From positions 1-47,677 of IMG/VR virus record IMGVR_UViG_3300031707_000030: a DNA stretch of 47,677 nucleotides, one strand, 5' to 3'. A model generated the notes under the pieces. The model searched no databases. It was not told the origin of the DNA and was given only the letters and a program-made list of their open reading frames with translations. Of this stretch, positions 5,156 to 42,183 are shown piece after piece (the stretch's first letter is position 1; each line of letters begins with the position of its first letter). The position numbers were made by a program, and so were the translations under genes. This DNA is from a virus.

Positions 5156-5605
5156 CTACGAATTTCCCACGCTGCAAGTGACTTCGTAGACTAGGATATG
5201 ATAGGCCCGAGTCTTCATCGGTGCTGATGGAAATTGGTCTTGAACCTCCTTGTGATAGAGCCATCCCGTCCCGAGCCATTGAGCAGAGAACAGGATCTCC
5301 TTCATCCTCGATTTGAGAGACTTGCAGAGCTCTTCAGCATTCTCCTGACCTTCAACCGTTTTGACAACGGTTTCGATCTTGACATATTCGCGGATCTGTC
5401 CAGCTACTCCGCCACAATTCCATTCGAAGGGACCGCAGCGAGGTTTCGAGATGATGATCCGCTTGTTGCCCGGCTCGCTTGTGGAGGCGAGGGCTTTTCT
5501 ATCTACGATCTTCTCTACGACCAAACCTGCCGTATTCTTAAGCTGTGAATCGCTCGAGATCGTCTGATAGAAGAGATCCACGACGTCAGCCTGAACGAAC
5601 GGCAT
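5156..5605 (-). CDS. Tail terminator candidate
   Basis: About 149 aa from ATG 5605, which shares a TGATG overlap with the connector gene; an ATG at 5620 is also possible. Mixed alpha/beta: an N-terminal helix (VDLFYQTISS), a strand, a central helix (EELCKSLKSRMKEIL) and C-terminal strands, the pattern of lambda gpU / SPP1 gp17-type terminators. Position after the connector and before the tail tube agrees. Ends in TAG. Confidence 0.55.
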   Translation of the reverse strand: MPFVQADVVDLFYQTISSDSQLKNTAGLVVEKIVDRKALASTSEPGNKRIIISKPRCGPFEWNCGGVAGQIREYVKIETVVKTVEGQENAEELCKSLKSRMKEILFSAQWLGTGWLYHKEVQDQFPSAPMKTRAYHILVYEVTCSVGNS

Positions 5606-7041
5606 CAGACTACTCCCCATCTCCGCTTTCGGAATCCTTCGAGTGTCGCATCAATGTCTCTCTGAAGCTCCGCGATCGTGTGAGCGAAGGGCCCGGATCC
5701 TGCTTGCTGGCCGCCTTGCTGAGTGAAAGTCTCAGACATTCCCGCGATTGAGACGACTGAGGATCCTTGAGTGTCGGATGCTCCTTTCTTCTTGAGCATC
5801 TCAATTACGACCATCTTCATGCAGACGTCTCGAATTCCCGGCGGCGGAGTCACGAAGCCGTAGGTGTAGGTTGCTTCAATGTTCGCGATGCCACGCCCGA
5901 AGTGCGTTGTGTAATCGAAGGGTACGCCTGCGGCTGGGAAAGGCTGATACGCGTAGATGGGCGGATACCAACCTAAAGCTCCTAGCTGCGAGGCCAACAT
6001 CGGAATTCCTGCTGAGGGTAACGTGATGAAACCGTTCTGGGCGTCTATGATGAGTTCGCTTGCAAAGTTAGTGTCAGTGCTCTTAATGTCCGTCACAACT
6101 TGATTGTCTGGGTTTCGGATTTTGACTTCTTGAATGCTCACGATTGGATAGTTGTCGAGAACAATCTTCTGTTGTCCAGATCCATCATAGAGTTCAGTCA
6201 CAGTGGCTAGATCAAAGCGCCTTTTCGTTGCGCGGTCAATCTCATCAGCAGAGCGATAGATGAAATCCAGAAGTTCCTCATCCTTCGTGATCACTTCGAC
6301 GTTGATCGTTTGGAGATAGCTGCGAACCTGATGAATAGAACAGTACGCTCGGCTTCCCGCCACGTCGAAACGGATGCTACCGCTCGAGACGGTTCCTGAG
6401 AGAGCCTCAATCTTCCCATTGACAGCTCGCGGAGAGATGCTTGAGGTTTTGATCCAGACAGTCTTGACGGTGCCCGGAGCCATGACTCCAAGGTTGATCG
6501 AGCTCGAGAAGAGCGAACCGTCAAGGCTGAGAGTATCGGAGCCCTGCCTCGTCAGAACCATGCTCTCAAGCGTGTCGCTTCCAATGTTGCGGATTGAGAA
6601 TTGGAAAGTCTGCTCGGAAACATAGGTCGGCTTCTGATATCTCGCATAGAGATCCACGAGATCCCCTATATCCAACATGCCGATCTCGAGAAGGCTACCC
6701 CATCGGAAAGTGTCTGCGCTCAGTTGAAGCCAACCCGTCATGAGAACCGCCTCGAGCTCTTCAGGATCCTCCGTCATGACTGAGATCGGCCCGACGCCGA
6801 GAAACTGCTGCTCAGGCGCTCCGCTGCTATGTCGAGTGTAATCCATCTGGGCAATGGCTCGTTGTGCTAGTTGCGAAGCGTCTGCGACTGCGTGGCCGAC
6901 TTCTTCTAGGCGAACCTTGGCATTCTCAACTTTTGAGGATCCTGTGTTCTTGAGTCGGAAGATTCGATAGGTCGGCTGCACTTCGTCAAGGCGAAGAGCC
7001 TCCAATGAGAGGCCGTTGACATCTTGGAAAGCTAGACTCAT
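5605..7041 (-). CDS. Head-tail connector fused to an N-terminal beta-domain pair
   Basis: 478 aa. The C-terminal half (about 235-478) matches the HK97 gp6 / SPP1 gp15 connector family: a helical start (SIHQVRSYL), a helix with DEIDRATKRRF, a beta insert beginning ELYDGSGQ, and a final helix ending FRKRRW. The N-terminal half (about 1-220) is beta-rich with two repeats of an Ig- or CARDB-like pattern (FRLKNTGSSKVENAKV and FSIRNIGSDTLESMVL). Usual connectors are about 100-200 aa, so this is an unusual fusion, perhaps decorating the neck. The start overlaps the 965-aa gene by 4 nt. Confidence 0.7.
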   Translation of the reverse strand: MSLAFQDVNGLSLEALRLDEVQPTYRIFRLKNTGSSKVENAKVRLEEVGHAVADASQLAQRAIAQMDYTRHSSGAPEQQFLGVGPISVMTEDPEELEAVLMTGWLQLSADTFRWGSLLEIGMLDIGDLVDLYARYQKPTYVSEQTFQFSIRNIGSDTLESMVLTRQGSDTLSLDGSLFSSSINLGVMAPGTVKTVWIKTSSISPRAVNGKIEALSGTVSSGSIRFDVAGSRAYCSIHQVRSYLQTINVEVITKDEELLDFIYRSADEIDRATKRRFDLATVTELYDGSGQQKIVLDNYPIVSIQEVKIRNPDNQVVTDIKSTDTNFASELIIDAQNGFITLPSAGIPMLASQLGALGWYPPIYAYQPFPAAGVPFDYTTHFGRGIANIEATYTYGFVTPPPGIRDVCMKMVVIEMLKKKGASDTQGSSVVSIAGMSETFTQQGGQQAGSGPFAHTIAELQRDIDATLEGFRKRRWGVV

Positions 7042-9935
7042 TTCTTAATCCTCTTCCTTGCGACATAGATGACTCCGCCAGCAGTCACCGAGATGATTGC
7101 GATCACGATCATCGTGGCTGTGCCAGGGCCCGCTTGCTCCCAAGTGATGTAGATCTGCCCGTATGCGTAGCCGGGGATCGGTTGAACCGTCAGATCGTAT
7201 CGATATCCGGTCCATGTCCCGTTTCCGTAAGGTGCTGTGAGACCGTTGATCTGCGCCATTCTTGGGCCATAGGCGAATGTTCCCGAGTCAGCTTTCACAT
7301 GGAGGGCTCCGCTGAGAGTGAAGTTGCCCATCAAGCTCTGCTCACCGTAGATGCTTCTAGGCATAGGGCTATTCGAGAAGACCCATCCGACAGGCTTGTT
7401 GTAGACAGCCCAGGCCTCATTCTGCCCTGATGCGGTGTCATTGACGAGGATCCACCATGAGGGATAAGTCCAGCCGAGATTGAATCCTGTCCTTGAAGAG
7501 TTCACGATTCCAAGGCGCTCATTCGCAACCATGAAGCCCGTGAAATTCTTCGTGCCTCCCGAGCCTGTCCATGTGATCCTGAAGTATGGATACTCGAGAT
7601 GGAAATCGTAGTTGGTCGGATAGAAGACTTCAAGCGTATAGCTGTCCGTGAACGGAACGACTATTGAGACGTCTGCCACGTCTCGAGATGGATCCCAAAT
7701 GTACGAGTAGCTTGATGCTCCTGCGACATAGACTCCTGCGATCTCTTTGCCGCTTGCCACTGAGACCTTGATCGTTTCTCCCGACTTGACTGACATCTGA
7801 ACGCTGAGAATGCTCGAGCCCCATGATATCGCGGTCATGTTGACGCGGAGGCTTGAGAGGATCCCGGCAGGAGCCATTTGCGCGGATCCTGTGAGAGCAG
7901 TCGCTGCATCCATCCATTCCTTCCAAGCGATAGCTCCCCAAGGCTGCGTTTCACTGTTCGTCTCGTATTTGTCAGGGAAGATGTAGACGATGGTTCGCGT
8001 CGAATTCAGAGTGGCTTTCCACCAAAGCTGAGAGATCGCTCGCATAGCAATCGGTTGACCGTATCCGAGACTATCAAGAGTGCTCGAGTAGGCTTGAGCT
8101 ATCATCGCAGACTTGTAGGATGGCCAGGCCCAATCGTAGATTGTGGCGGTCGTATTCTGGCCGCCCACGATGATCCCGGCGGGAACAATGTGATATCGCT
8201 CGACTTGCGCGATGATATCCCATTCGACATATTGATAGTTGCTCGTTCCATCCGCGACTTTGAAGTGATTCGTCGCGATCGTGATGCGACTTAGAACTGT
8301 CGAGTTCCCTCGTGCATTGTAGTAATCTGCGAGCGCCCGAATCGCGGGAGCGGTGAAATCGAGATAGCTGTTTCCCCAATACTGGATTCCCGACGTCTCG
8401 TTGTACCAGCGCCATTCCTGAAAGCCTCCATAATTCGGCTTCGCGATGTCGAGCTGCTGCGTCTCAAGCAGCTTGTCCAGAGCACGAGCTATCGCCTCAT
8501 TCATTTGAGCTTGAAATCCGGGATCGCTTGAGAAGGAATAGAGAAGGAGCTCTCCGCGAAGCATGAAGGGGAGACTCTGCAAGTAGGTTCCTGCAACATG
8601 AGGATATGTGCCAGCACTTCGGAACATTCGATCCCAATTCGCCCAGATCCTGACGGCCAACGTGAGATACGCGGCGTCTCCTGTGGCCTGATACATTTTC
8701 GTGAGGCCGTAGACGAGAGCTCCATACTGATAGTTCTGACTTGGATCCTTGTCAGTCAGATTCCAAACATTGAAGATCTCGCTGTATGTCGGGGAGAGAT
8801 TCGTCCAGTCATGTCCGTCCAAGAAATAGTATTTGAGGCTGAAAGTCTTCGTTTGGCCTGCTGTCATAGCTGCGAGAAAAGCGTACTGTTTGAGCCAATG
8901 AAGGTTAGGAGAGTTTCGAAGAGACGGCAGCTCGGATCCTGTGAGCGCGTTATCTACGGCTCCGAGAACAGTCTTGTTGACTCCCCAATCGGCCACGATT
9001 GCGAGGCTCGCGCTCACCCCGTCAGGCTTGTCGTGCATGTGAACCATGTACCAGGTTTCATCCCATTGGCTCACGTTCGGGAGAAAGTGCTGATTCGCTG
9101 TGTCGTCGCTCATCTGATCTGCATAGCCTGGCATCCAAATCCATTGATAGCCTAAATGCGGCCCTCCCGCGAACATTGTGGAGCCGAACCAATCGAGCTG
9201 ATCCAGTGGAACGACAACTTTCACGTCAGTCATGTTCGCCTTCGCATAGAAACTGTATCCGACTTCGAGGTATGCGCGGTGTTCCCAGAATGTGTACTCT
9301 ATCGTCATCTTGAATCCTGTGAGATCCCAGATCTGAGTCAGTCGAGCGTATTCGAGGCCGCCACTTGTTCCCGACGTAACCGAGTAGTCAGTTGGAGGAT
9401 AGACATAGCTCAAGTCTAGATCTGCTGTGCCGTTCCAAACCACATGACCCTGAATGACCGTCATCAGGATTCCTTGCGGGAGATAGAGGATCTTGAAACT
9501 CCGATCCCTCGCTTTGCTGAGATCTCCATAAGCTTCTATCAGACGGTTGTGAACCACGAACGATAGCGGATTCTGGATTCCGATTGTTGGCTGCTGGATG
9601 ATGTCACGCCTGATTGCGCTTCCCGCGCTCGTGACATGGTTCGAGATGAATGAGCGAACCTGAGAGCCATAGCTCCAATGCGTCGGGCTTGCAGCGAGAA
9701 GCTCAAGCATCTTGCCTTGATCGTCAACCCAATAGTTGTAAGGCTCAGTGAGAGGCGAGGCTTTGAAAGCGCCTCTGCTCGAATCCCACAGATTCGCGAC
9801 AGCGGTTAGAGCGGCATTCGAAAGAAACGAGTTCGACGTCGAACTTGGAAGAGATGCCTCCGCCGAATTGAAACCTGAAGCTAGGAGAATCAGCATCGTC
9901 AGGGCTAGGATCCCGATTAACTTTATTCGCCTCAC
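7038..9935 (-). CDS. Large surface-anchored, glycosidase-like protein
   Basis: 965 aa with a signal peptide (residues 1-27), a long extracellular part and a C-terminal membrane helix (about 936-958) followed by RKRIKK. It should be exported and anchored outside the host membrane. Many N-glycosylation sequons occur (for example NGT, NMT, NLS, NTT, NFT). Residues about 390-680 alternate helices with Trp/Tyr-rich turns like alpha/alpha-toroid glycoside hydrolases or polysaccharide lyases; the rest is beta-sandwich-like. GTG start near GGAGG. It lies inside the head-tail operon with overlapping neighbours. Candidate roles: host-envelope remodelling, superinfection exclusion or egress; not assigned to a family. 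Confidence 0.55.
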   Translation of the reverse strand: MRRIKLIGILALTMLILLASGFNSAEASLPSSTSNSFLSNAALTAVANLWDSSRGAFKASPLTEPYNYWVDDQGKMLELLAASPTHWSYGSQVRSFISNHVTSAGSAIRRDIIQQPTIGIQNPLSFVVHNRLIEAYGDLSKARDRSFKILYLPQGILMTVIQGHVVWNGTADLDLSYVYPPTDYSVTSGTSGGLEYARLTQIWDLTGFKMTIEYTFWEHRAYLEVGYSFYAKANMTDVKVVVPLDQLDWFGSTMFAGGPHLGYQWIWMPGYADQMSDDTANQHFLPNVSQWDETWYMVHMHDKPDGVSASLAIVADWGVNKTVLGAVDNALTGSELPSLRNSPNLHWLKQYAFLAAMTAGQTKTFSLKYYFLDGHDWTNLSPTYSEIFNVWNLTDKDPSQNYQYGALVYGLTKMYQATGDAAYLTLAVRIWANWDRMFRSAGTYPHVAGTYLQSLPFMLRGELLLYSFSSDPGFQAQMNEAIARALDKLLETQQLDIAKPNYGGFQEWRWYNETSGIQYWGNSYLDFTAPAIRALADYYNARGNSTVLSRITIATNHFKVADGTSNYQYVEWDIIAQVERYHIVPAGIIVGGQNTTATIYDWAWPSYKSAMIAQAYSSTLDSLGYGQPIAMRAISQLWWKATLNSTRTIVYIFPDKYETNSETQPWGAIAWKEWMDAATALTGSAQMAPAGILSSLRVNMTAISWGSSILSVQMSVKSGETIKVSVASGKEIAGVYVAGASSYSYIWDPSRDVADVSIVVPFTDSYTLEVFYPTNYDFHLEYPYFRITWTGSGGTKNFTGFMVANERLGIVNSSRTGFNLGWTYPSWWILVNDTASGQNEAWAVYNKPVGWVFSNSPMPRSIYGEQSLMGNFTLSGALHVKADSGTFAYGPRMAQINGLTAPYGNGTWTGYRYDLTVQPIPGYAYGQIYITWEQAGPGTATMIVIAIISVTAGGVIYVARKRIKK

Positions 9936-9990: not shown

Positions 9991-10473
9991 TCAGCGAGGC
10001 TCTTCATCCCATTCGATACCCATTGATCCGTTGTTGGTTGCGCCAGACGAGTACGTGAATAGGATGCTGTTTCCAGGGTCAAGAACCCAGGGCGAGCGGG
10101 ATAGGTCTAGGATGACTGGTGTCGCTGGGTTCACCCAGAAGTCGTAGATTAGATCGCCTTCTGCGGTGACTGTGGGGCCATAGTAGAGTACGGCCTCGTT
10201 CGTTTGACCCTTGCCCATGCGTCGGTTCTTGATTGTTTGAGCGGTTCCATCGGCGGTTGTGGTCGGGGCCTGCGTGACTCTCCATCGGGCGCTTGAGTCA
10301 GAGCTGAAGATCAGTTTCGTTATTCGAATGACCTTCGAGCTGCCAGTTCCGAACTTCGCGAAGCGCATGTCTCCGCCAGCCGTGTTCGTGTGAGGCCCTG
10401 TCGATGAGACGAACCCTTTCCCTGATTCTACAGCGGCTTCGCTACGAGAACGCATGATTATGGATTGAGGCAT
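9991..10473 (-). CDS. Beta-rich minor virion protein
   Basis: 160 aa, almost wholly beta-strand with Gly/Thr/Asn turns, no membrane segment or signal. It is preceded by a good AGGTGA ribosome site. Together with the next upstream gene it forms a pair just after the capsid gene, where head decoration or head-fibre proteins are common. Family not recognised; the virion role is inferred from position. Confidence 0.45.
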   Translation of the reverse strand: MPQSIIMRSRSEAAVESGKGFVSSTGPHTNTAGGDMRFAKFGTGSSKVIRITKLIFSSDSSARWRVTQAPTTTADGTAQTIKNRRMGKGQTNEAVLYYGPTVTAEGDLIYDFWVNPATPVILDLSRSPWVLDPGNSILFTYSSGATNNGSMGIEWDEEPR

Positions 10474-11071: not shown

Positions 11072-12322
11072 TTAGGCGAGGCCGTATATGCGGCCCATCT
11101 TGGAGGTAGCGTCCGTTGAGGTCGGGTTCGTGTTGTACGTGTAGGTTGGCGGCTTCGAATCTGTCTTGTCTATGTAGTTGAAGAACCGTTTGATGACGAA
11201 GGGTTGCTGTATGCTGACTTTGGCGAGCATCTCCATCGTACTGTCCAAGAGTAGCCTTTGCGCGAGGAACTTGGTGTCGAGGAAGATGATCTCCCTTGAT
11301 CCTACTGTGGTGGGCATGAACTTGCTGCCTATGAATGGCATGACACCGTAAGGCGTAGCCCATGCTAATGCTTTGAGACCCCAAGCGATTTCGGTCTCGG
11401 GGTTCATGTACCGGACTATGCTCATCATGAGTTGCTTGATCTTCTGCCATGTCATCAAGTCTGTGACGGCCAAGTTGGGTTTGACGTTCAACTGGACCAT
11501 TTGTGCTATCATGTTGTCTATGTCGGTGTCTGTGGCGTCTGCTCCAGCTAGGTTTGACTGTAGTGCTGCGTAGGTTCCGGATGAGCCTATGATTTCGGCT
11601 CTTATGCCGTTGAATCCGACTGAGCCTGCGTTGAAGGCTGATTCAAGCGTGGTTCCTCCGTTGAGGATTTCGTTCTCATCAGTTTCGTTGAGGCTCCATG
11701 TCTTGTTGCGAATTTCGATGGCTCTGGCGTCACGGGTTGGGTACTGGCTTGCCATTGCAGCTAAGCCGAAGTCAGTCCATCCACCCCACGCTGTGAAGAT
11801 GCCTAATGTTTTCGAGGCGTTCACATAGGTGTCTGAGGCTGGTGTTTGAGCAGCAACGGTTTCAGTGACACCCAACGCGGATCCTCGGGCTGTTAGCACG
11901 TCGTAGTTGGCGACTTTGCCTCGGGCAGTTTCCTGGGCGATGAGTTCTAAGAGTGGCGTTTCTCTGCGTGTGGTGTCTATGATTTCTTGGTCGGTTGTCG
12001 TGTGCACGATGGCTGATGTGCTGTCCAAGAAGCCTTTGGTTCTGAGGCTGCGTATACGCATCTTCTTGCGTATCCATCCGAGGTACATTTGGCGGAAGTC
12101 TTTGCCGAGTTCTCCGTTGTCTTTGAGGCCTTCGTAGATTACTGTGCCTTCAGGGAAGGCTGCTAATCCAACGAGGCCAGCAAGGATACCTGCGGGTGTT
12201 CCTCCTTGAACGGGCGGTGTGAGAACTGCGTTGTCTACTGTGCTGTAGTATGGTCGAGCGTTTTCTCCTCCGCCTGGTCCGGCTCTGACTTGTTCGGGGT
12301 CAACTAATTTCAGGTGGCTCAT
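11072..12322 (-). CDS. Major capsid protein, HK97 fold
   Basis: 416 aa, directly after the protease-scaffold gene (2-nt gap), ATG behind a GGAGGT site that overlaps the end of the protease. Order, size and pattern fit an HK97-fold capsid: an N-terminal arm, an E-loop region with an AAQTPASDTY-type stretch, a long spine helix, and an A-domain region (residues about 270-340) with TDLMTWQKIKQLM. The C-terminus is a short Lys/Tyr/Pro-rich tail. It forms the icosahedral head. Confidence 0.75.
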   Translation of the reverse strand: MSHLKLVDPEQVRAGPGGGENARPYYSTVDNAVLTPPVQGGTPAGILAGLVGLAAFPEGTVIYEGLKDNGELGKDFRQMYLGWIRKKMRIRSLRTKGFLDSTSAIVHTTTDQEIIDTTRRETPLLELIAQETARGKVANYDVLTARGSALGVTETVAAQTPASDTYVNASKTLGIFTAWGGWTDFGLAAMASQYPTRDARAIEIRNKTWSLNETDENEILNGGTTLESAFNAGSVGFNGIRAEIIGSSGTYAALQSNLAGADATDTDIDNMIAQMVQLNVKPNLAVTDLMTWQKIKQLMMSIVRYMNPETEIAWGLKALAWATPYGVMPFIGSKFMPTTVGSREIIFLDTKFLAQRLLLDSTMEMLAKVSIQQPFVIKRFFNYIDKTDSKPPTYTYNTNPTSTDATSKMGRIYGLA

Positions 12323-14790: not shown

Positions 14791-15299
14791 TTCTCGCGTC
14801 TTTCCCTTCGTGGTGGATATCGACGCTTCGGGGCAGGGCTCTCAACGTGTGGCCGAGCGGGAAGATTTGATACGGCTGCGAGTAAGCTGATGGATTGAGG
14901 TTTCGGTGGTAGCGATTCAGGCATGGCCGGTTTGGTTTCCTGCTTCAGAACTGGAAGCGGCGGTGTGCCAGTTGGCTGAGTGGGCATGGATGATTGAGGT
15001 TTTGGTGGTTGCGGCTCGTCGTATATGCAATTTTGTTTTGCTTCGAATTTGAGGCAGATGTAGCGTGGGTTTTCAGGCTCATCAGGTAAGCTGAGGCCGC
15101 CGAACATGTTGATTCTATAGTGCGGGCAAGTGTAACATTCTGAACGATATGCGTAATCTGTGGGTTTGCGAGGGCTCATCCGTTTGACGCAGTTCGGACA
15201 ATGCCAGCGCCCAGCCGACCACAATCCTTTCGTTGCGAATTGAGATTCTACTCTGCCGCAGATGAAACACCGAGCCCCTTGCTGCACGGTGGCCGTCAT
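14787..15299 (-). CDS. Cysteine-rich zinc-binding protein
   Basis: 170 aa. The N-terminal half has CFIC, CPNC, CYTC and two further Cys residues, enough for two zinc sites. The C-terminal half is Pro/Lys/Arg-rich and probably disordered. It overlaps both neighbours by 4 nt, so it is co-translated with the Hjc-like resolvase. Function unknown. Confidence 0.45.
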   Translation of the reverse strand: MTATVQQGARCFICGRVESQFATKGLWSAGRWHCPNCVKRMSPRKPTDYAYRSECYTCPHYRINMFGGLSLPDEPENPRYICLKFEAKQNCIYDEPQPPKPQSSMPTQPTGTPPLPVLKQETKPAMPESLPPKPQSISLLAAVSNLPARPHVESPAPKRRYPPRRERREK

Positions 15300-15583
15300 A
15301 GAGTTTCAACTTCAAGTGGCTGTCTCGGTTTAAAGATCCAGACTTGGGCTTTGGCTTGGAATCGTGAGGCCAGAAATTTGAGGGCGATTCGTTCTTGCTG
15401 TGTGGGCTTCGCGTTCCCTGATTTGACTTGTATGACGAATCTTTCACCGTCAGGGCTCGCAGCAATTAGATCGGCTGGTCCGTGGCTGCCTGCGCTTCTA
15501 ATGCAGAGAAAGTTGAGACGTCGCAGCTTGGCGATAGCTCTGTATTCAGCGGACCGCCCTTTGAGGTAGGCTCGATTTGGCAT
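15296..15583 (-). CDS. Hjc-like Holliday junction resolvase
   Basis: 95 aa, PD-(D/E)XK nuclease fold of archaeal Hjc type: Glu13 in GRSAEYR, the RSAGSHGPADLI motif with Asp38, and Gln52-Val-Lys54 in the place of the usual Glu-x-Lys. Length is slightly short for Hjc (about 120-140 aa). It likely resolves branched DNA before packaging. The Glu-to-Gln change at the metal site is worth noting, although some family members have Gln here. Confidence 0.7.
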   Translation of the reverse strand: MPNRAYLKGRSAEYRAIAKLRRLNFLCIRSAGSHGPADLIAASPDGERFVIQVKSGNAKPTQQERIALKFLASRFQAKAQVWIFKPRQPLEVETL

Positions 15584-28585: not shown

Positions 28586-28918
28586 CTATGGCCCCCACTC
28601 CATCAAGATCAGCTCTTTCATTTCGCTAGCGATCAGAGCAGCGACCAGACCTGCAAGCATTGTAGCTACGAAGTCTTGGTTCAGAGCGAAGAGAATCCAG
28701 GTGATCGGAGCCAAGGCGAGACCGAAGAGAAAGTGATGCAGATGGATCCGTTTCGACTTTCCGATCTTGACGTATTGCAGAATGCTAAGATCGCCTCGCT
28801 TCCACTTGTGGTACCAGCGAACCTTCACGTAGTCAGCTAGGATGCGGATGATGAAAAGCCCTAAGCCGAACGTGAACCAAAACGGGGAAGTCAGGAAGGC
28901 GAGCAGTGAGGCCATCAT
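28586..28918 (-). CDS. Small multi-span membrane protein
   Basis: 110 aa with hydrophobic helices at about 3-24, 65-83 and 85-102, and a basic loop with KVRWYHKWKRGD between. Sits in the run of membrane proteins after the protease gene. Possible holin-like or envelope protein; no family recognised. Ends in TAG that directly precedes the next ATG in frame. Confidence 0.45.
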   Translation of the reverse strand: MMASLLAFLTSPFWFTFGLGLFIIRILADYVKVRWYHKWKRGDLSILQYVKIGKSKRIHLHHFLFGLALAPITWILFALNQDFVATMLAGLVAALIASEMKELILMEWGP

Positions 28919-28925
28919 GCAACTT

Positions 28926-29165
28926 CTACCTTCCGGGCTTCTTGAAGAACCGACTCAACCATCGGCGTGCTTCGCCCACGTAGAAGAGCACAGCAACGAT
29001 GGATAGGTAGAGACCGATCAGATTGATGCCCAGAAAGAGAACGAAGTTGGGGGCGATTCCTGTCAGCCCGCCAGCGAGAAACAGGCCGAAGCCTGCTGCC
29101 CAGCTTGCCGACGTCAGGAAGGATCCTGCGAGTAGATAGGCGAAGGCTGCGAGATACTTGTTCAT
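28926..29165 (-). CDS. Small membrane protein
   Basis: 79 aa from ATG 29165 behind GGAGGTGA. Two or three hydrophobic helices (starting YLAAFAYLLAGSFL, later NFVLFLGINLIGLYLSIVAV) and a basic C-terminus with RWLSRFFKKPGR. Membrane role inferred; likely acts with its neighbour in egress or in an envelope function. Confidence 0.5.
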   Translation of the reverse strand: MNKYLAAFAYLLAGSFLTSASWAAGFGLFLAGGLTGIAPNFVLFLGINLIGLYLSIVAVLFYVGEARRWLSRFFKKPGR

Positions 29166-29170
29166 CCGTC

Positions 29171-29335
29171 TCACCTCCGCTTTGCGGCTCCCATCGTCGA
29201 AGTATGGTAGGGCTTGTGTACGACTGAGAATTTCACAATGACTTCCGCGTCTTCCCAGACGAGCTTGACGTTGGCGGTCTCAGCTTTCTTGATTGCCTGG
29301 AAGAGTCTGCCGACTAGATCGGAGACGAAATCCAA
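29171..29335 (-). CDS. 54-aa protein after the protease gene
   Basis: TTG start 29335 follows the protease TGA within 7 nt. An N-terminal helix (VSDLVGRLFQAIKKAE), then strands ANVKLVW and VIVKFSVVH. A longer frame upstream overlaps the protease gene and is not credible. Unknown function. Confidence 0.4.
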   Translation of the reverse strand: MDFVSDLVGRLFQAIKKAETANVKLVWEDAEVIVKFSVVHKPYHTSTMGAAKRR

Positions 29336-29342
29336 CAGGACT

Positions 29343-30992
29343 TCAGGCCCTCTGCTCTTTGCTCTTGGCGCTGAAGTAGTGTTCGATCTCGCGGGCTGTG
29401 AGGCCGCCGAAGAAAGTGAACATCGGGAGTGCACTAGGGAACCAGATCGAAAGGGCACCGAAGATGCCGCATCCGAGCAACGTTCCGAGAGCGAAGGCTC
29501 CTCGATAGTCTTTCTCCTTTAGCTGGTACTTCTCCAAGACCTTGCTTACCTGCTTCTTATCTCGGGCCTTGCTCAACACCAGGTTGACTATTGCCTGCTT
29601 CTGTTTGCGCGTTATCATGCCCTGCTCTACCAGGCACACGACTAGGCCAACGATGCAGTTGATGAGATAGTCTAGATCAGAGCCATCCCAGCCCATGATG
29701 CATTCGAGGAATGGTGTCCAGCAATCTGTCGGCGGTTCTTCATCAGGGACACATTTGCCCTGGTCTGGATCCCAATGTTGCCCCGGAGGACATTCAGGCT
29801 GATCAGGTACACACTTGCCTTGTGTTGGATCCCAATGCTGGCCGGGCGGACATTCAGGCTGCTCACCATCAGGATGAGCGGCCCAATCGAACTCGACTCC
29901 GTAATCTCGAGCGATGGCAGGGAGAGCGATAGCGTAGTTCGTTGTCGAGGATCCTGCGAAGTTGATTCCTGCCAGACCGATTGCTTGGCCTGACGGCCTT
30001 GCTAGGAAGCTCGAGCCTGAGCTTCCGCCAGAGATCTTCGCTGTATGCTCGATGCAATGGTTCAGATAGGCGATGAAGAATTCATAGTTGACACCGATCG
30101 TGACTTCAGTGGCTATGATCTTACCTGAAGTGGTTCCTTCTGTCCGTGAAGAACTCCAGCATTCCCAATCGACCTGCGGTTCCCAATAGACGATGCTGAT
30201 TCCGCCAAAGTCTAGAACATCAGCGCTGACATAATTCAGATCGGCTGCGTTCGTCAGTAGATAGTCAAATTCGTTCTCCTGGTATGGCTGAACAGGAATG
30301 ATGAAAGTATGCCGATAGGAGACGATGTCGCTTGGACAGATTCCGCCGTCATAGGGGGAAGGTTGAGCCCATCCGTGGCCCGCAGGATAGGGCGAGCCGT
30401 CAGTGCTAAAGTTCATTCCGCAGTGGTAGTTCTGGGCGAGATGCCAGCAGCCTGTGTACTTCCTCCCAGCGAGCTCTATAGTGCCATACCATTTAGAGTT
30501 CAGACAGTCAGCATGGGCTTTGTGTTTTAGATCTCCTCGAACCCAGAAGTGTGAGCTGCAAGCCGAGGAGCCGCAGGCGATTAGTGAGACGCCTCCTGGG
30601 ACGGGGCGATATTTCTTCATGTGCTCAGCGGGGCCGCTGACGGGTTTCGGAATATCTATGATTGGCCGTTCAATGATGTCGGTGTGCATTCCGTCAAGGA
30701 TCTTGGGTATCATGACGGGAGCGACTTCAAGAGAGTGGCCGAGCGAATCAACGACTCGCGTTCTGCTTTCTGGCCCCGGCAACTTGCCTTTCTGGAATTC
30801 CTCGAAGAGTTTCCAGAATTCACTTTCGGTCATGAGGGCAGCGGGTTCGACCTTCTTGGGAAAGCCGATTGTGATGCAGGGGATGCTAGTCTCTTTGCCT
30901 CCGATAATCTTCATTCGAGTGTGAGTGATGTAGGTTGCTCCGAGCGCTATCAGGAATTTCTGGTACTTGTTCCTAACCGTTTCTAACGACAT
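29343..30992 (-). CDS. Trypsin-like serine protease with repeats and membrane anchor
   Basis: 549 aa. Residues about 150-385 follow a chymotrypsin-like plan, with the nucleophile region GGSSGSSFLARPSG and a following GLAGINF strand; His and Asp are not certain. Then come two copies of a PPGQHWDP...GKCVPD module (60-bp DNA tandem repeat) and a Cys-rich linker. The C-terminal part has a charged helix and two hydrophobic segments (about 500-535). No classical signal peptide. Possible role: cleavage of host envelope or S-layer proteins in egress, or virion protein processing. Overlaps the upstream gene by 20 nt. Confidence 0.55.
   Translation of the reverse strand: MSLETVRNKYQKFLIALGATYITHTRMKIIGGKETSIPCITIGFPKKVEPAALMTESEFWKLFEEFQKGKLPGPESRTRVVDSLGHSLEVAPVMIPKILDGMHTDIIERPIIDIPKPVSGPAEHMKKYRPVPGGVSLIACGSSACSSHFWVRGDLKHKAHADCLNSKWYGTIELAGRKYTGCWHLAQNYHCGMNFSTDGSPYPAGHGWAQPSPYDGGICPSDIVSYRHTFIIPVQPYQENEFDYLLTNAADLNYVSADVLDFGGISIVYWEPQVDWECWSSSRTEGTTSGKIIATEVTIGVNYEFFIAYLNHCIEHTAKISGGSSGSSFLARPSGQAIGLAGINFAGSSTTNYAIALPAIARDYGVEFDWAAHPDGEQPECPPGQHWDPTQGKCVPDQPECPPGQHWDPDQGKCVPDEEPPTDCWTPFLECIMGWDGSDLDYLINCIVGLVVCLVEQGMITRKQKQAIVNLVLSKARDKKQVSKVLEKYQLKEKDYRGAFALGTLLGCGIFGALSIWFPSALPMFTFFGGLTAREIEHYFSAKSKEQRA
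29750..29869 (-). repeat. 60-bp tandem repeat coding for PPGQHWDP modules
   Basis: Two adjacent 60-nt units within the protease gene, each encoding a 20-residue Cys-containing module of the same plan (ECPPGQHWDP then GKCVPD). Similar CPPGxxWD modules occur in secreted, chitin-binding-like or EGF-like proteins. Copy number could vary among relatives. Confidence 0.7.
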
Positions 30993-38919: not shown

Positions 38920-39735
38920 ATGGGAAACCAGAAAGAAGAGAGAGAAGCAATGATGTCTCAAGTCGAGACCGTTCCAATCAAAGAGCTGCGTGTTTCTCCG
39001 CTTAATGTCAGGAAAAGAGTGGGTGAGCTTGATGATCTGCAATCATCAATCAAGTCGATAGGACTTCTACAACCCATAATTGTGCGCGATGTTCAAGGGA
39101 AACTTGAGGTGGTTATTGGACAAAGAAGGTTTCTCGCTTGCAAGGCTCTCGGTTGGGATACAATTCCGGCAGTCAGACGAAAGCTCAGTGACAGGGAGGC
39201 GCTGATCTTGTCGTTGACTGAGAATGTGCAGATGGACTCACTAGATCCAATTGACAGAGCTGAAGGCACCGAGAAGCTGATCAAGGATCTAGAAAAGGAG
39301 ATGCCTAGAACCAAGGCGGTGGATATAGCAGCTACAACCCTTGGTAAAGGGTCAAGCACGATCTACGATTGGTTGCGCCTACTTGAGACAACCGAGGCGG
39401 TAAAGAGAATGGTTCAAGAGAAAAGAATGGAGATAGAGATAGGGGCGAGACTGGCTTCTCTTCCCAAGCGGCAACAGACAGAGGTGGCAAAAGTCATTCA
39501 GGAGGAGAGCCTTCCCAGATCTCAAGCAGCAAAGGTCATAGATTATGTTGGCAGGCAGCCCAAACTGCCAGCAAGAGAGGCGATCAAAACCTTTCTGAGG
39601 GAGACAGAGGAATACTCTGTGACCGTTTCTCTGTCCGGTTCACTCTATAGGGCTCTTTCTGAGTTTGCGCGGACAAGAAAGCTCACAGTACAGGAGATAA
39701 TTCGAAGAGCGATCAGGAAATTCCTCGGATCATGA
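38920..39735 (+). CDS. parB: ParB-family protein with C-terminal RHH
   Basis: 271 aa. N-terminal ParB/Srx-type CTPase domain: VSPLNVRKRVGELDDLQSSI, LQPIIVRD, and VIGQRRFLACK with GQRR in place of the usual GERR; LTENVQMDSLDPIDRAEG follows. Then a helix-turn-helix near 130-160 (GKGSSTIYDWLRL). The last 45 residues (YSVTVSLSGSLYRALSEFA) form an RHH-like dimer domain. No ParA follows, so it may regulate the genes behind it instead of DNA partition. The next gene overlaps by 4 nt. Confidence 0.8.
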   Translation: MGNQKEEREAMMSQVETVPIKELRVSPLNVRKRVGELDDLQSSIKSIGLLQPIIVRDVQGKLEVVIGQRRFLACKALGWDTIPAVRRKLSDREALILSLTENVQMDSLDPIDRAEGTEKLIKDLEKEMPRTKAVDIAATTLGKGSSTIYDWLRLLETTEAVKRMVQEKRMEIEIGARLASLPKRQQTEVAKVIQEESLPRSQAAKVIDYVGRQPKLPAREAIKTFLRETEEYSVTVSLSGSLYRALSEFARTRKLTVQEIIRRAIRKFLGS

Positions 39736-40721
39736 ATCTCTCTCCGGAGAGAAATTCCATGTTGGGGGTGCGTACCGCCGAATACACCATGCTCAATGGG
39801 TCGAAGAACGAGCTTGTTAAACAAATTGGAGACGGCTCCATAATCAAGCGCTTCGACATGACGCCCTTCCCAGTCGGAGGGTCTGACATTGTTTGTCCTC
39901 ACTTTCTGGAATTGAAATGGGCTACTGGATGCCCTTTCGACTGTGCTTGGTGCTATTTGAGGGGCACGATGCGCCATTATCCGCGAAAGAAGAATCCGAC
40001 GTACAAAAGCCGTGAAAAAGTCAGGTCCCACCTACAGCGTTTCTTCAGAGTTGACTACCCTGCCGAGAAAGAAGTCTTGAATACTGGCGAACTTGCGGAC
40101 TCTCTCATGTCGGAACATACGAATACTCCTTTTTCGAGATTCGTCGTTCCTCTGTTTGAGACCCAACAGAGACACAAAGTCCTGTTCTTGACAAAGAGTC
40201 CTTCGGTAGATAACCTCTTGAGAATGAACCCACATAACCAAGTGATAGTGAGTTTCAGTCTGAACTCGGAAGCTGTTGCCAACAGGTGGGAGAGAGCCCC
40301 ATCAGTAGCCAAGAGAATTGAGGCGGCAGCAAAGGCATTCGAAGCAGGTTACGAAACTAGGATAAGAATAGATCCTATAGTCCCTTATCCGGAAACTGAG
40401 TGGCCCAAGCACTATCGCAAACTCATCGACAGCATCTTTTCCAATCTATATCCGGAGAGAATCACTCTTGGCTCTCTTAGGGGTCTACAGAGCACAATCA
40501 ATGAGGCTGTGGACAAGTCTTGGGTCGATTGTCTGAGAGAACCATCAAAGTGGGGCAAGAGGATACCATCGGAGCTTCGATACCGAACCTTCGAAGTAAT
40601 ATTGAACCATCTAGTAGAACACCATGGTTACAGTAACGTATCCCTCTGTAAGGAACCTGTGATGATATGGGAAAAACTAGGGCTGAATTGGAAAAACTGC
40701 GCCTGTAATTGCGTGTGGTAG
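39732..40721 (+). CDS. SPL-like radical SAM protein
   Basis: 329 aa. Cluster CPFDCAWC (Cys67, Cys71, Cys74) and landmarks of the spore-photoproduct-lyase-like group: ELKWATGCPF, FLTKSP near 165, and RIDPIVPYPETEW near 215. Extra Cys near the C-terminus (NCACNCVW) might bind a second cluster. It overlaps ParB at the start and TcmP at the end. In other genomes such proteins occur next to TcmP-type partners; the substrate is unknown, although the SPL group includes nucleic-acid-acting enzymes. Confidence 0.75.
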   Translation: MNLSPERNSMLGVRTAEYTMLNGSKNELVKQIGDGSIIKRFDMTPFPVGGSDIVCPHFLELKWATGCPFDCAWCYLRGTMRHYPRKKNPTYKSREKVRSHLQRFFRVDYPAEKEVLNTGELADSLMSEHTNTPFSRFVVPLFETQQRHKVLFLTKSPSVDNLLRMNPHNQVIVSFSLNSEAVANRWERAPSVAKRIEAAAKAFEAGYETRIRIDPIVPYPETEWPKHYRKLIDSIFSNLYPERITLGSLRGLQSTINEAVDKSWVDCLREPSKWGKRIPSELRYRTFEVILNHLVEHHGYSNVSLCKEPVMIWEKLGLNWKNCACNCVW

Positions 40722-41611
40722 GCTTGGCTTACCTTCACATCAAAGAACATTCACACAGAAAGTACCGCATCCTTGACAAATATCTACGTGCTTGTGAAAG
40801 ATTCAGCAACAAGTATCAAAACTTCGCCTATATTGACACCCACGGCGGTTCGGGTAGGGTTCTAGATGTATGCACAGACGAACTAACAGATGGTTCGACA
40901 CTCATCGCCGCCAGAATCACGCCTAGCTTCCCATGCTACGTTGTAGAGATAGACCGCGTGAAGTACGAACTGCTGACGATGTCTACCAGAGAGCTTCCTA
41001 ATGTCAAAGCATTCTTTGGAGATTGCAACAGAAAGATCCATGGCATCCTAGCGACCATTGCCAAGGGCCAAATGTTCGTTTTCTGCTTCGTCGATCCTGA
41101 TGGACTAGTCTATCATGGAAAAGATGCCTCCTATGATGAACTGACTTGGAACACCGTTCAGGCGATTGCAACATTTCCGAGGACTGAGCTGCTTCTGAAT
41201 CTTCCATTACAGGCGATAATGGAATGTGCTGGGTATGTCCGCAACCTCCCAGACAATGCGGCGTCTCAAAAAATGAGAGAAAGAATGTCGACATTCTTCG
41301 GTACTGAAAAGTGGCAGGATCTGGACCCAGGAGACTACAAGGGTTTCATGAGGTTGTATGCCTCAGAAAGGTTGGAGCGACATTACCAGTACATCGGTAG
41401 CATACTTGTCAGAAATATCATGCGAGGCCCCCAATACTATCTTCTGTACGGCTCCAAGAGCCTCATGGGAGGACAGATAATGAGGGACATAATGAAGAGG
41501 GAGTATATGACTACGGTAGGGGTTCCTCTAACAAGACACCAGCACAAGACCGACAAGGAGTGGCTGGATGCGGAGTATCCTCTGAATCAACCTTTCTTCT
41601 TTGAAGACTAG
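40709..41611 (+). CDS. tcmP: Three-Cys-motif partner protein TcmP
   Basis: 300 aa from TTG 40709. HSHRKYRILDKYL, then YIDTHGGSGR (41-50), VVEIDRVKYE near 78 and FCFVDPDGL (126-133) are TcmP landmarks; the same elements follow the Rossmann methyltransferase plan (motifs I, II, IV). TcmP is defined as the neighbour of three-Cys radical-SAM-like proteins; its activity is not established. Overlap with the radical SAM gene supports a functional pair. Confidence 0.8.
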   Translation: MRVVGLAYLHIKEHSHRKYRILDKYLRACERFSNKYQNFAYIDTHGGSGRVLDVCTDELTDGSTLIAARITPSFPCYVVEIDRVKYELLTMSTRELPNVKAFFGDCNRKIHGILATIAKGQMFVFCFVDPDGLVYHGKDASYDELTWNTVQAIATFPRTELLLNLPLQAIMECAGYVRNLPDNAASQKMRERMSTFFGTEKWQDLDPGDYKGFMRLYASERLERHYQYIGSILVRNIMRGPQYYLLYGSKSLMGGQIMRDIMKREYMTTVGVPLTRHQHKTDKEWLDAEYPLNQPFFFED

Positions 41612-41643: not shown

Positions 41644-42183
41644 ATGCATAGAATAAAAGTAGCGATGTTCGCTCCAGACCCTCATAGAATGCCAAAGAAC
41701 CTAGATGAGAAAGTGGACAGGCTCTATGGCAAGAATGTCGCATTAGAATTTTGCTTCTACTGGGAGCCTCCCACCGTTGAAGAGATGAGAGCCACAGGGG
41801 TATGTGATAAACTCGCTGAAGTGTGTTGGCAAGAGCATGATGTCAAAGATTTCTACTGCAAAACTCAGATCAGCTCACTGATTGAAAGAGTTGCCAACTA
41901 TGAGTATTTTCTCTTCTTGACTACTCAGAATCCGATTCTCCGGGGAACCCCTTGCGGCGTTGGAACTGGCTCTGTCGTTGGACATCTTGAAGGAAAGCAC
42001 TTAGCAGTCGCTCCTTTTTGGGATATGGAACACATACTCCATGAAGTCGGCCACATGATAGGTCTTGAACATTGCGAAGATGTAGATTGTGTAATGTACG
42101 AGGGCCATCTTCGTAGACAAAGTAGTTTATGCGAACGACATAGGAAAGAAGTACCGATGAACAGAGAAAAGGAAGTGCCCTAA
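41644..42183 (+). CDS. Archaemetzincin-like zinc protease
   Basis: 179 aa. HEVGHMIGLEHC (His133-Cys144), then C149-V-M151, is the archaemetzincin signature (HExxHxxGxxHC then CxM); one Cys, at 163, occurs where a final CxxC is expected. The N-terminal strand pattern also matches metzincins. No signal peptide, so intracellular. It follows TcmP by 32 nt and probably shares its transcript. Whether it cleaves proteins is not established for the family. Confidence 0.75.
   Translation: MHRIKVAMFAPDPHRMPKNLDEKVDRLYGKNVALEFCFYWEPPTVEEMRATGVCDKLAEVCWQEHDVKDFYCKTQISSLIERVANYEYFLFLTTQNPILRGTPCGVGTGSVVGHLEGKHLAVAPFWDMEHILHEVGHMIGLEHCEDVDCVMYEGHLRRQSSLCERHRKEVPMNREKEVP

Follow-up and report, generated by a model that had tools for sequence, protein, structure and literature searches.

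Why would a tailed virus keep, among its head genes, a gene whose product seems built for the outer face of a cell membrane? The window, by which we mean the whole 47,677-base IMG/VR virus record analyzed here, raises this question with a 965-aa protein encoded on the minus strand (9935 to 7038), with a GTG start and a TGA stop. The parts of the protein and its locus, all on the minus strand, are as follows.

7038–9935, minus: gene for the exported, membrane-anchored 965-aa protein (open reading frame, translation, relatives, dN/dS)
9855–9935, minus: predicted signal peptide, residues 1–27, with probable cleavage between AEA and S (sequence, hydropathy, hydrophobic N-termini of relatives)
9501–9854, minus: N-terminal helical region, residues 28–145, a candidate first hairpin (secondary structure, low-confidence models)
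9711–9740, minus: YNYWVDDQGK, residues 66–75, with D71 and D72 as candidate catalytic acids (alignments A7 and A9)
8796–9500, minus: putative beta-rich domain, residues 146–380 (secondary structure, low confidence)
7866–8783, minus: helical-hairpin, alpha/alpha-toroid-like region, residues 385–690, including a GH127/GH76-like hairpin at 400–433 (profile matches, weak models)
8424–8435, minus: NYGG motif, residues 501–504, common to the second viral type (alignment)
7935–7958, minus: NSETQPWG, residues 660–667, with a candidate catalytic Glu (alignments)
7131–7838, minus: putative C-terminal beta-rich part, residues 700–935 (secondary structure, very low confidence)
7041–7127, minus: transmembrane anchor and basic tail, residues 937–965 (sequence, hydropathy)
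5605–7041, minus: head-tail adaptor gene, 478 aa, with an ATGA overlap (phrog_442)
9991–10473, minus: upstream gene of 160 aa, a possible decoration protein (phrog_5335 match, function not annotated)
11072–12322, minus: HK97/SU10-like major capsid protein (SU10_MCP match)

Sequence reading and a hydropathy scan indicate a hydrophobic N-terminal signal with a plausible cleavage site and, at the C-terminus, a hydrophobic segment (residues about 937–957) followed by RKRIKK. The protein carries 16 N-x-S/T sequons, compared with 7.1 expected from composition-preserving shuffles (s.d. 2.5, z = 3.6), and in the same test every other window protein has z ≤ 2.0. Ten of the 16 are sequons in all relatives covering the position. 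There are no cysteines in the protein. Its stop codon overlaps the start of the adaptor gene by 4 nt (ATGA), as is also the case in L002–L005, and a dN/dS of about 0.12–0.23 indicates that the gene is under purifying selection. The signal peptide, the many sequons, the anchor with its basic end, the short overlap and the location inside a virion operon had each been proposed in the first-pass annotation, and all are borne out; the relatives have an equivalent N-terminus, the adaptor matches the phrog_442 head-tail adaptor (E 1.7e-14) and the major capsid protein gene lies upstream (SU10_MCP, E 5.9e-10).

The host of this virus is probably archaeal. The sole phage-record match of the window capsid protein is the haloarchaeal tailed virus HHTV-2 (23% identity), a Haloarcula virus with a similar head-gene order. 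An Hjc-like Holliday-junction-resolvase match (15296–15583, minus) and an archaemetzincin-like gene (41644–42183, plus), together with the cellular homologues described below, point the same way. The archaeal host assumed at first pass thus gains support, all of it indirect. Elsewhere in the window, a 549-aa protein (29343–30992, minus) shows a phrog_20754 protease match, two ECPPGQHWDP-type repeats matching CBM_14 and two hydrophobic segments, and its gene is adjoined by those of two small membrane proteins (28586–28918 and 28926–29174). A radical-SAM gene resembling spore photoproduct lyase, followed by a gene for a TcmP three-Cys-motif partner protein, occupies 39732–41611 (plus).

Members of the exported-protein family occupy the same slot in seven related IMG/VR contigs. 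Five carry proteins 72–92% identical to that of the window. A capsid-protein scan of IMG/VR brought in L116 and L117. Their capsid proteins share 89% and 85% identity with that of the window, but in the slot they encode another exported protein (862–864 aa), which has the same anatomy and whose gene overlaps that of the adaptor by 4 nt. This second viral type aligns with the window protein at 23–24% identity, largely misses the C-terminal beta-rich part and shares the motifs YNYWxDDQGK, NYGG and N-S/T-ETxP. The window-type HMM scores L116 and L117 over 200 shuffles (E 2e-4 and 6e-4), and global alignment of the two types gives z 4.7; sequons are not significantly enriched in L116 or L117. Neither the adaptor nor the C-terminal region nor L005 recovered additional relatives when used as scan queries, and the phage collection held no match to the window protein, the second viral type or the cellular toroid region. 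A motif scan of IMG/VR returned 39 matches, of which those in a YNYW-DDQGK context belong to this virus clade and the rest lie in unrelated contexts.

More distant viruses differ at this position. In L120 and L121 (capsid 59%) and in HHTV-2, no gene for a large exported protein separates the adaptor from the head genes, and the adaptors measure 256–259 aa, compared with 466–481 aa where the exported gene is present. Among the relatives examined, including L116, L117, L120 and L012, an N-terminal adaptor extension of about 230 aa occurs only where the exported gene does. In L120, a 332-aa beta-helix-like protein (L120:11161–12159; PF13229, below cut-off) is encoded downstream of the capsid gene. 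The co-occurrence of extension and exported gene bears on the possibility that the protein belongs to the virion, as a glycoprotein that binds receptors or degrades glycans in the manner of SSV19 VP4 or the HFTV1 turret protein. Its gene lies among head genes and overlaps that of the adaptor, archaeal viruses have glycan-active virion proteins, and the ectodomain swapping described next would suit a host-range determinant. However, HK97-type heads assemble in the cytoplasm, whereas the signal peptide and anchor would put this protein outside the membrane, and no envelope gene was recognized among the window proteins examined. We therefore regard a place in the virion as unlikely.

The ectodomain has been exchanged between viral backbones. 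L002 and L005 have capsid proteins only 25–26% identical to the window's, and their adaptor genes differ from each other by a dS of 0.03; the exported protein of L002 is nevertheless 92% identical to that of the window. Between about 10150 and 12600, L002 DNA is mostly 91–99% identical to the window per 100-nt block (block L002:10100–12640), while the flanks of this block follow L005 and the signal-peptide region is mixed. These boundaries indicate that the anchor region remains tied to the backbone while the ectodomain is transferred. That L002 is an assembly chimera appears unlikely, because, among the longest runs listed, exact matches of at least 17 nt between L005 and the other type are missing at both breakpoints, with the exception of a single 17-nt match to L004 near the second. 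Exchange of this kind fits a region that has to suit the surface of the host, although function is not thereby demonstrated.

Cellular homologues came to light only with the second viral type. Its profile (A6) gave matches at E ≤ 0.01 (best 4.5e-36) in six of the 398 genomes scanned from one archaeal phylum, this being the phylum of a genome titled Thaumarchaeota (Thermoproteota in GTDB). Profile A1 found no relative in these 398 genomes, in 294 genomes of a second phylum or in a scan of genome contigs. The best cellular match, L168:11502–15359, shares 37% identity with the second viral type over the toroid region and has two Laminin_G_3 stretches and a membrane anchor. It lacks the DD motif (Y-x-Y-W-x-DD-x-GK), and its sequons are not significantly enriched. 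Its neighbors are lysine-biosynthesis-like genes, as named from a reading of their N-termini, so L168 looks chromosomal. Three further proteins (L170:6435–8429, L171:760–2874 and L172:1458–3389) carry the DD motif and N-T-E. An N-terminal hydrophobic segment is present in L170 and L171 and a C-terminal one in L171 and L172, the L172 reading frame beginning within the gene beside an ambiguous base. The genes of L170 and L171 adjoin SBP_bac_5 solute-binding proteins, which were considered as family members and rejected as neighbors only; L170 also lies near Gfo/Idh/MocA and xylose-isomerase-like genes, and L172 near a sugar-acid-kinase-like gene.

Like the window protein, the Thermoproteota proteins are exported or membrane-anchored, with the DD motif in three of four, N-T-E, and sugar-related neighbors for three; unlike it, they are apparently chromosomal, and the three that are full-length align with it at about 19% identity and are missing a large share of its C-terminal beta part. 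Profile comparison links the second viral type to the cellular set at E 7.7e-8 and the window type to it, at the DD motif, at E 3e-4. In a joint test with the window-type profile, none of the 450 shuffles reached the score of any real member, although the three motif-bearing cellular members cleared them only narrowly. By itself, the evidence tying the window type to the cellular proteins is weak; the connection depends on the second viral type as an intermediate. Across the viral types and the Thermoproteota proteins we found export, the Y-x-Y-W-x-DD-x-GK and N-S/T-E motifs (L168 lacking the first) and homology over most of the length, the features by which we define the family.

The search for homologues proposed at first pass has thus found them both in viruses, in the same slot, and in archaeal cells. 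The outcome named there as refuting the reading, no toroid and homologues among host S-layer proteins only, is not what emerged; three of the cellular relatives lie near genes for sugar uptake or catabolism, and one has lectin domains. The lectin part of L168 resembles a PDB S-layer-domain protein; for the viral proteins themselves, no match supports reading them as S-layer proteins.

The sugar-related neighborhoods would also fit nutrient scavenging. On that account the gene would be an auxiliary metabolic one, its product a carbohydrase at the surface that would supply the infected cell with environmental sugars, much as the cellular homologues sit beside solute-binding proteins and sugar-catabolism genes. 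We consider this very unlikely for a gene that lies inside the head module and overlaps that of the adaptor; the window proteins examined include none recognized as serving sugar transport or catabolism.

Two motifs stand out in the alignments. Y66, Y68, W69, D71, D72, G74 and K75 are invariant in aligned viral and cellular members (A7, A9), as are N660, E662 and P665. That D71, D72 and E662 persist at an overall identity of about 20% fits a retained chemistry, and it argues against a catalytically dead surface protein that would act as a lectin-like decoy or receptor blocker excluding superinfecting viruses. Such a protein would agree with an anchored ectodomain exchanged between viruses, and L168, with lectin domains and without the DD motif, offers a cellular parallel; we nonetheless judge it improbable. 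Because L168 lacks that motif, catalysis may not hold for every member.

The first-pass annotation had also likened the middle of the protein to toroid glycosidases. GH127 beta-L-arabinofuranosidases (PF07944) and GH76 mannanases (PF03663) are six-hairpin toroids. Every one of the six close members matches the GH127 profile, at E 8.5e-6 in the best case. The score of the window protein itself is 18.5 bits, under the curated cut-off of 24.9, over 34 residues (profile 224–257), a stretch too short to place the family catalytic residues; its GH76 score is 14.9 bits over profile 209–258, under the cut-off of 25.9. The similarity is local, at residues about 393–441, where only one hairpin aligns, and the DD motif sits outside it in the N-terminal helical region. 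Matches to PDB profiles were weak and mostly to alpha/alpha-toroid carbohydrate enzymes: 6ex6, a six-hairpin glycosidase (E 0.003), and 4mu9 (E 0.12) for the window type, and PL17 alginate lyase (E 0.02) and GH127 enzymes (E 0.33) for the family-wide alignment. With the intermediate alignment A7, the 6ex6 match weakened to E 0.28 and Clp protease chains were added, and the toroid-region alignment A10 found no PDB relative.

AlphaFold gave a pLDDT of 32.8 for the whole protein from one sequence and 32.7 for residues 28–700 with six sequences. Both models, at about 33, were rejected as structures, and fold matches made with them count as weak support only. The secondary structure of the 28–700 model suggests a hairpin at the N-terminus, then a beta domain, then five more hairpins. 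The better region of this model (40–69) matches GH127, GH76 and epimerase toroids with Z about 9–11, values that may be common for helical arrangements, as the fold-comparison tool warns, and most fold matches cover positions 357–564 of this poor model. Given the GH127 matches in all six members, the toroid matches in the PDB and a predicted secondary structure that fits six hairpins, the middle likely resembles an alpha/alpha-toroid carbohydrate enzyme. The earlier assignment survives in this form, tempered by the low pLDDT and by the curated cut-offs that the window protein misses; likewise, the structure prediction and fold search suggested with it returned many toroid enzymes, but from a poor model.

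For the question posed at the outset, we favor the answer that the virus has captured a carbohydrate-active protein of the archaeal cell surface, which would be made late in infection and tethered to the outside of the infected cell, where it would trim surface glycans; we consider this reading about as likely to be right as wrong. The source of the gene would be a family of archaeal carbohydrate-active proteins of alpha/alpha-toroid type that are anchored at the cell surface, and the gene product would be a type I membrane glycoprotein. Judging from its position, it would be transcribed late with the head genes; the protein would then be exported by Sec, N-glycosylated by the host and kept at the outer side of the cell membrane, where it would probably cleave or remodel host surface or S-layer glycans, with acidic residues among D71, D72 and E662 as candidates for the chemistry. 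The likeliest benefit would be removal of glycan receptors, preventing both superinfection and re-adsorption of progeny, and/or a loosened S-layer for release. The protein is a concrete, testable candidate for how tailed archaeal viruses handle a glycosylated S-layer at exit and against competitors, and the YNYWxDDQGK and N-S/T-E motifs are handles for finding further members. New here are the second viral type in the slot, the Thermoproteota homologues and the swapped ectodomain of L002.

Two archaeal viruses offer the closest comparisons. Virions of SSV19 (Fuselloviridae) hydrolyze host N-glycan, and their VP4 tailspike has a putative endo-mannanase domain resembling a Bacteroides mannanase (PMC12042106). 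VP4 is, as we read the window protein, a glycan-active protein of an archaeal virus; it is, however, the tailspike of a spindle-shaped virus, whereas the window protein is membrane-anchored and encoded in a head operon of HK97 type. The phage collection and the PDB profile search gave no VP4 match to the window protein, VP4 itself possibly lying outside both sets. In HFTV1, the turret head protein gp31 is predicted to modify glycans and has been proposed to weaken the S-layer (PMC12494034). It would share with the window protein a glycan-modifying role in an archaeal tailed virus, and it differs in being part of the virion turret, with a polysaccharide-deacetylase-like domain and another proposed enzyme class. 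Since the glycan-active proteins of SSV19 and HFTV1 are virion proteins, a membrane-anchored form would be new. More broadly, and only tentatively, archaeal tailed viruses may display a captured, anchored receptor-destroying enzyme whose ectodomain is traded among lineages according to host surface glycans, much like the receptor-destroying surface enzymes of enveloped viruses.
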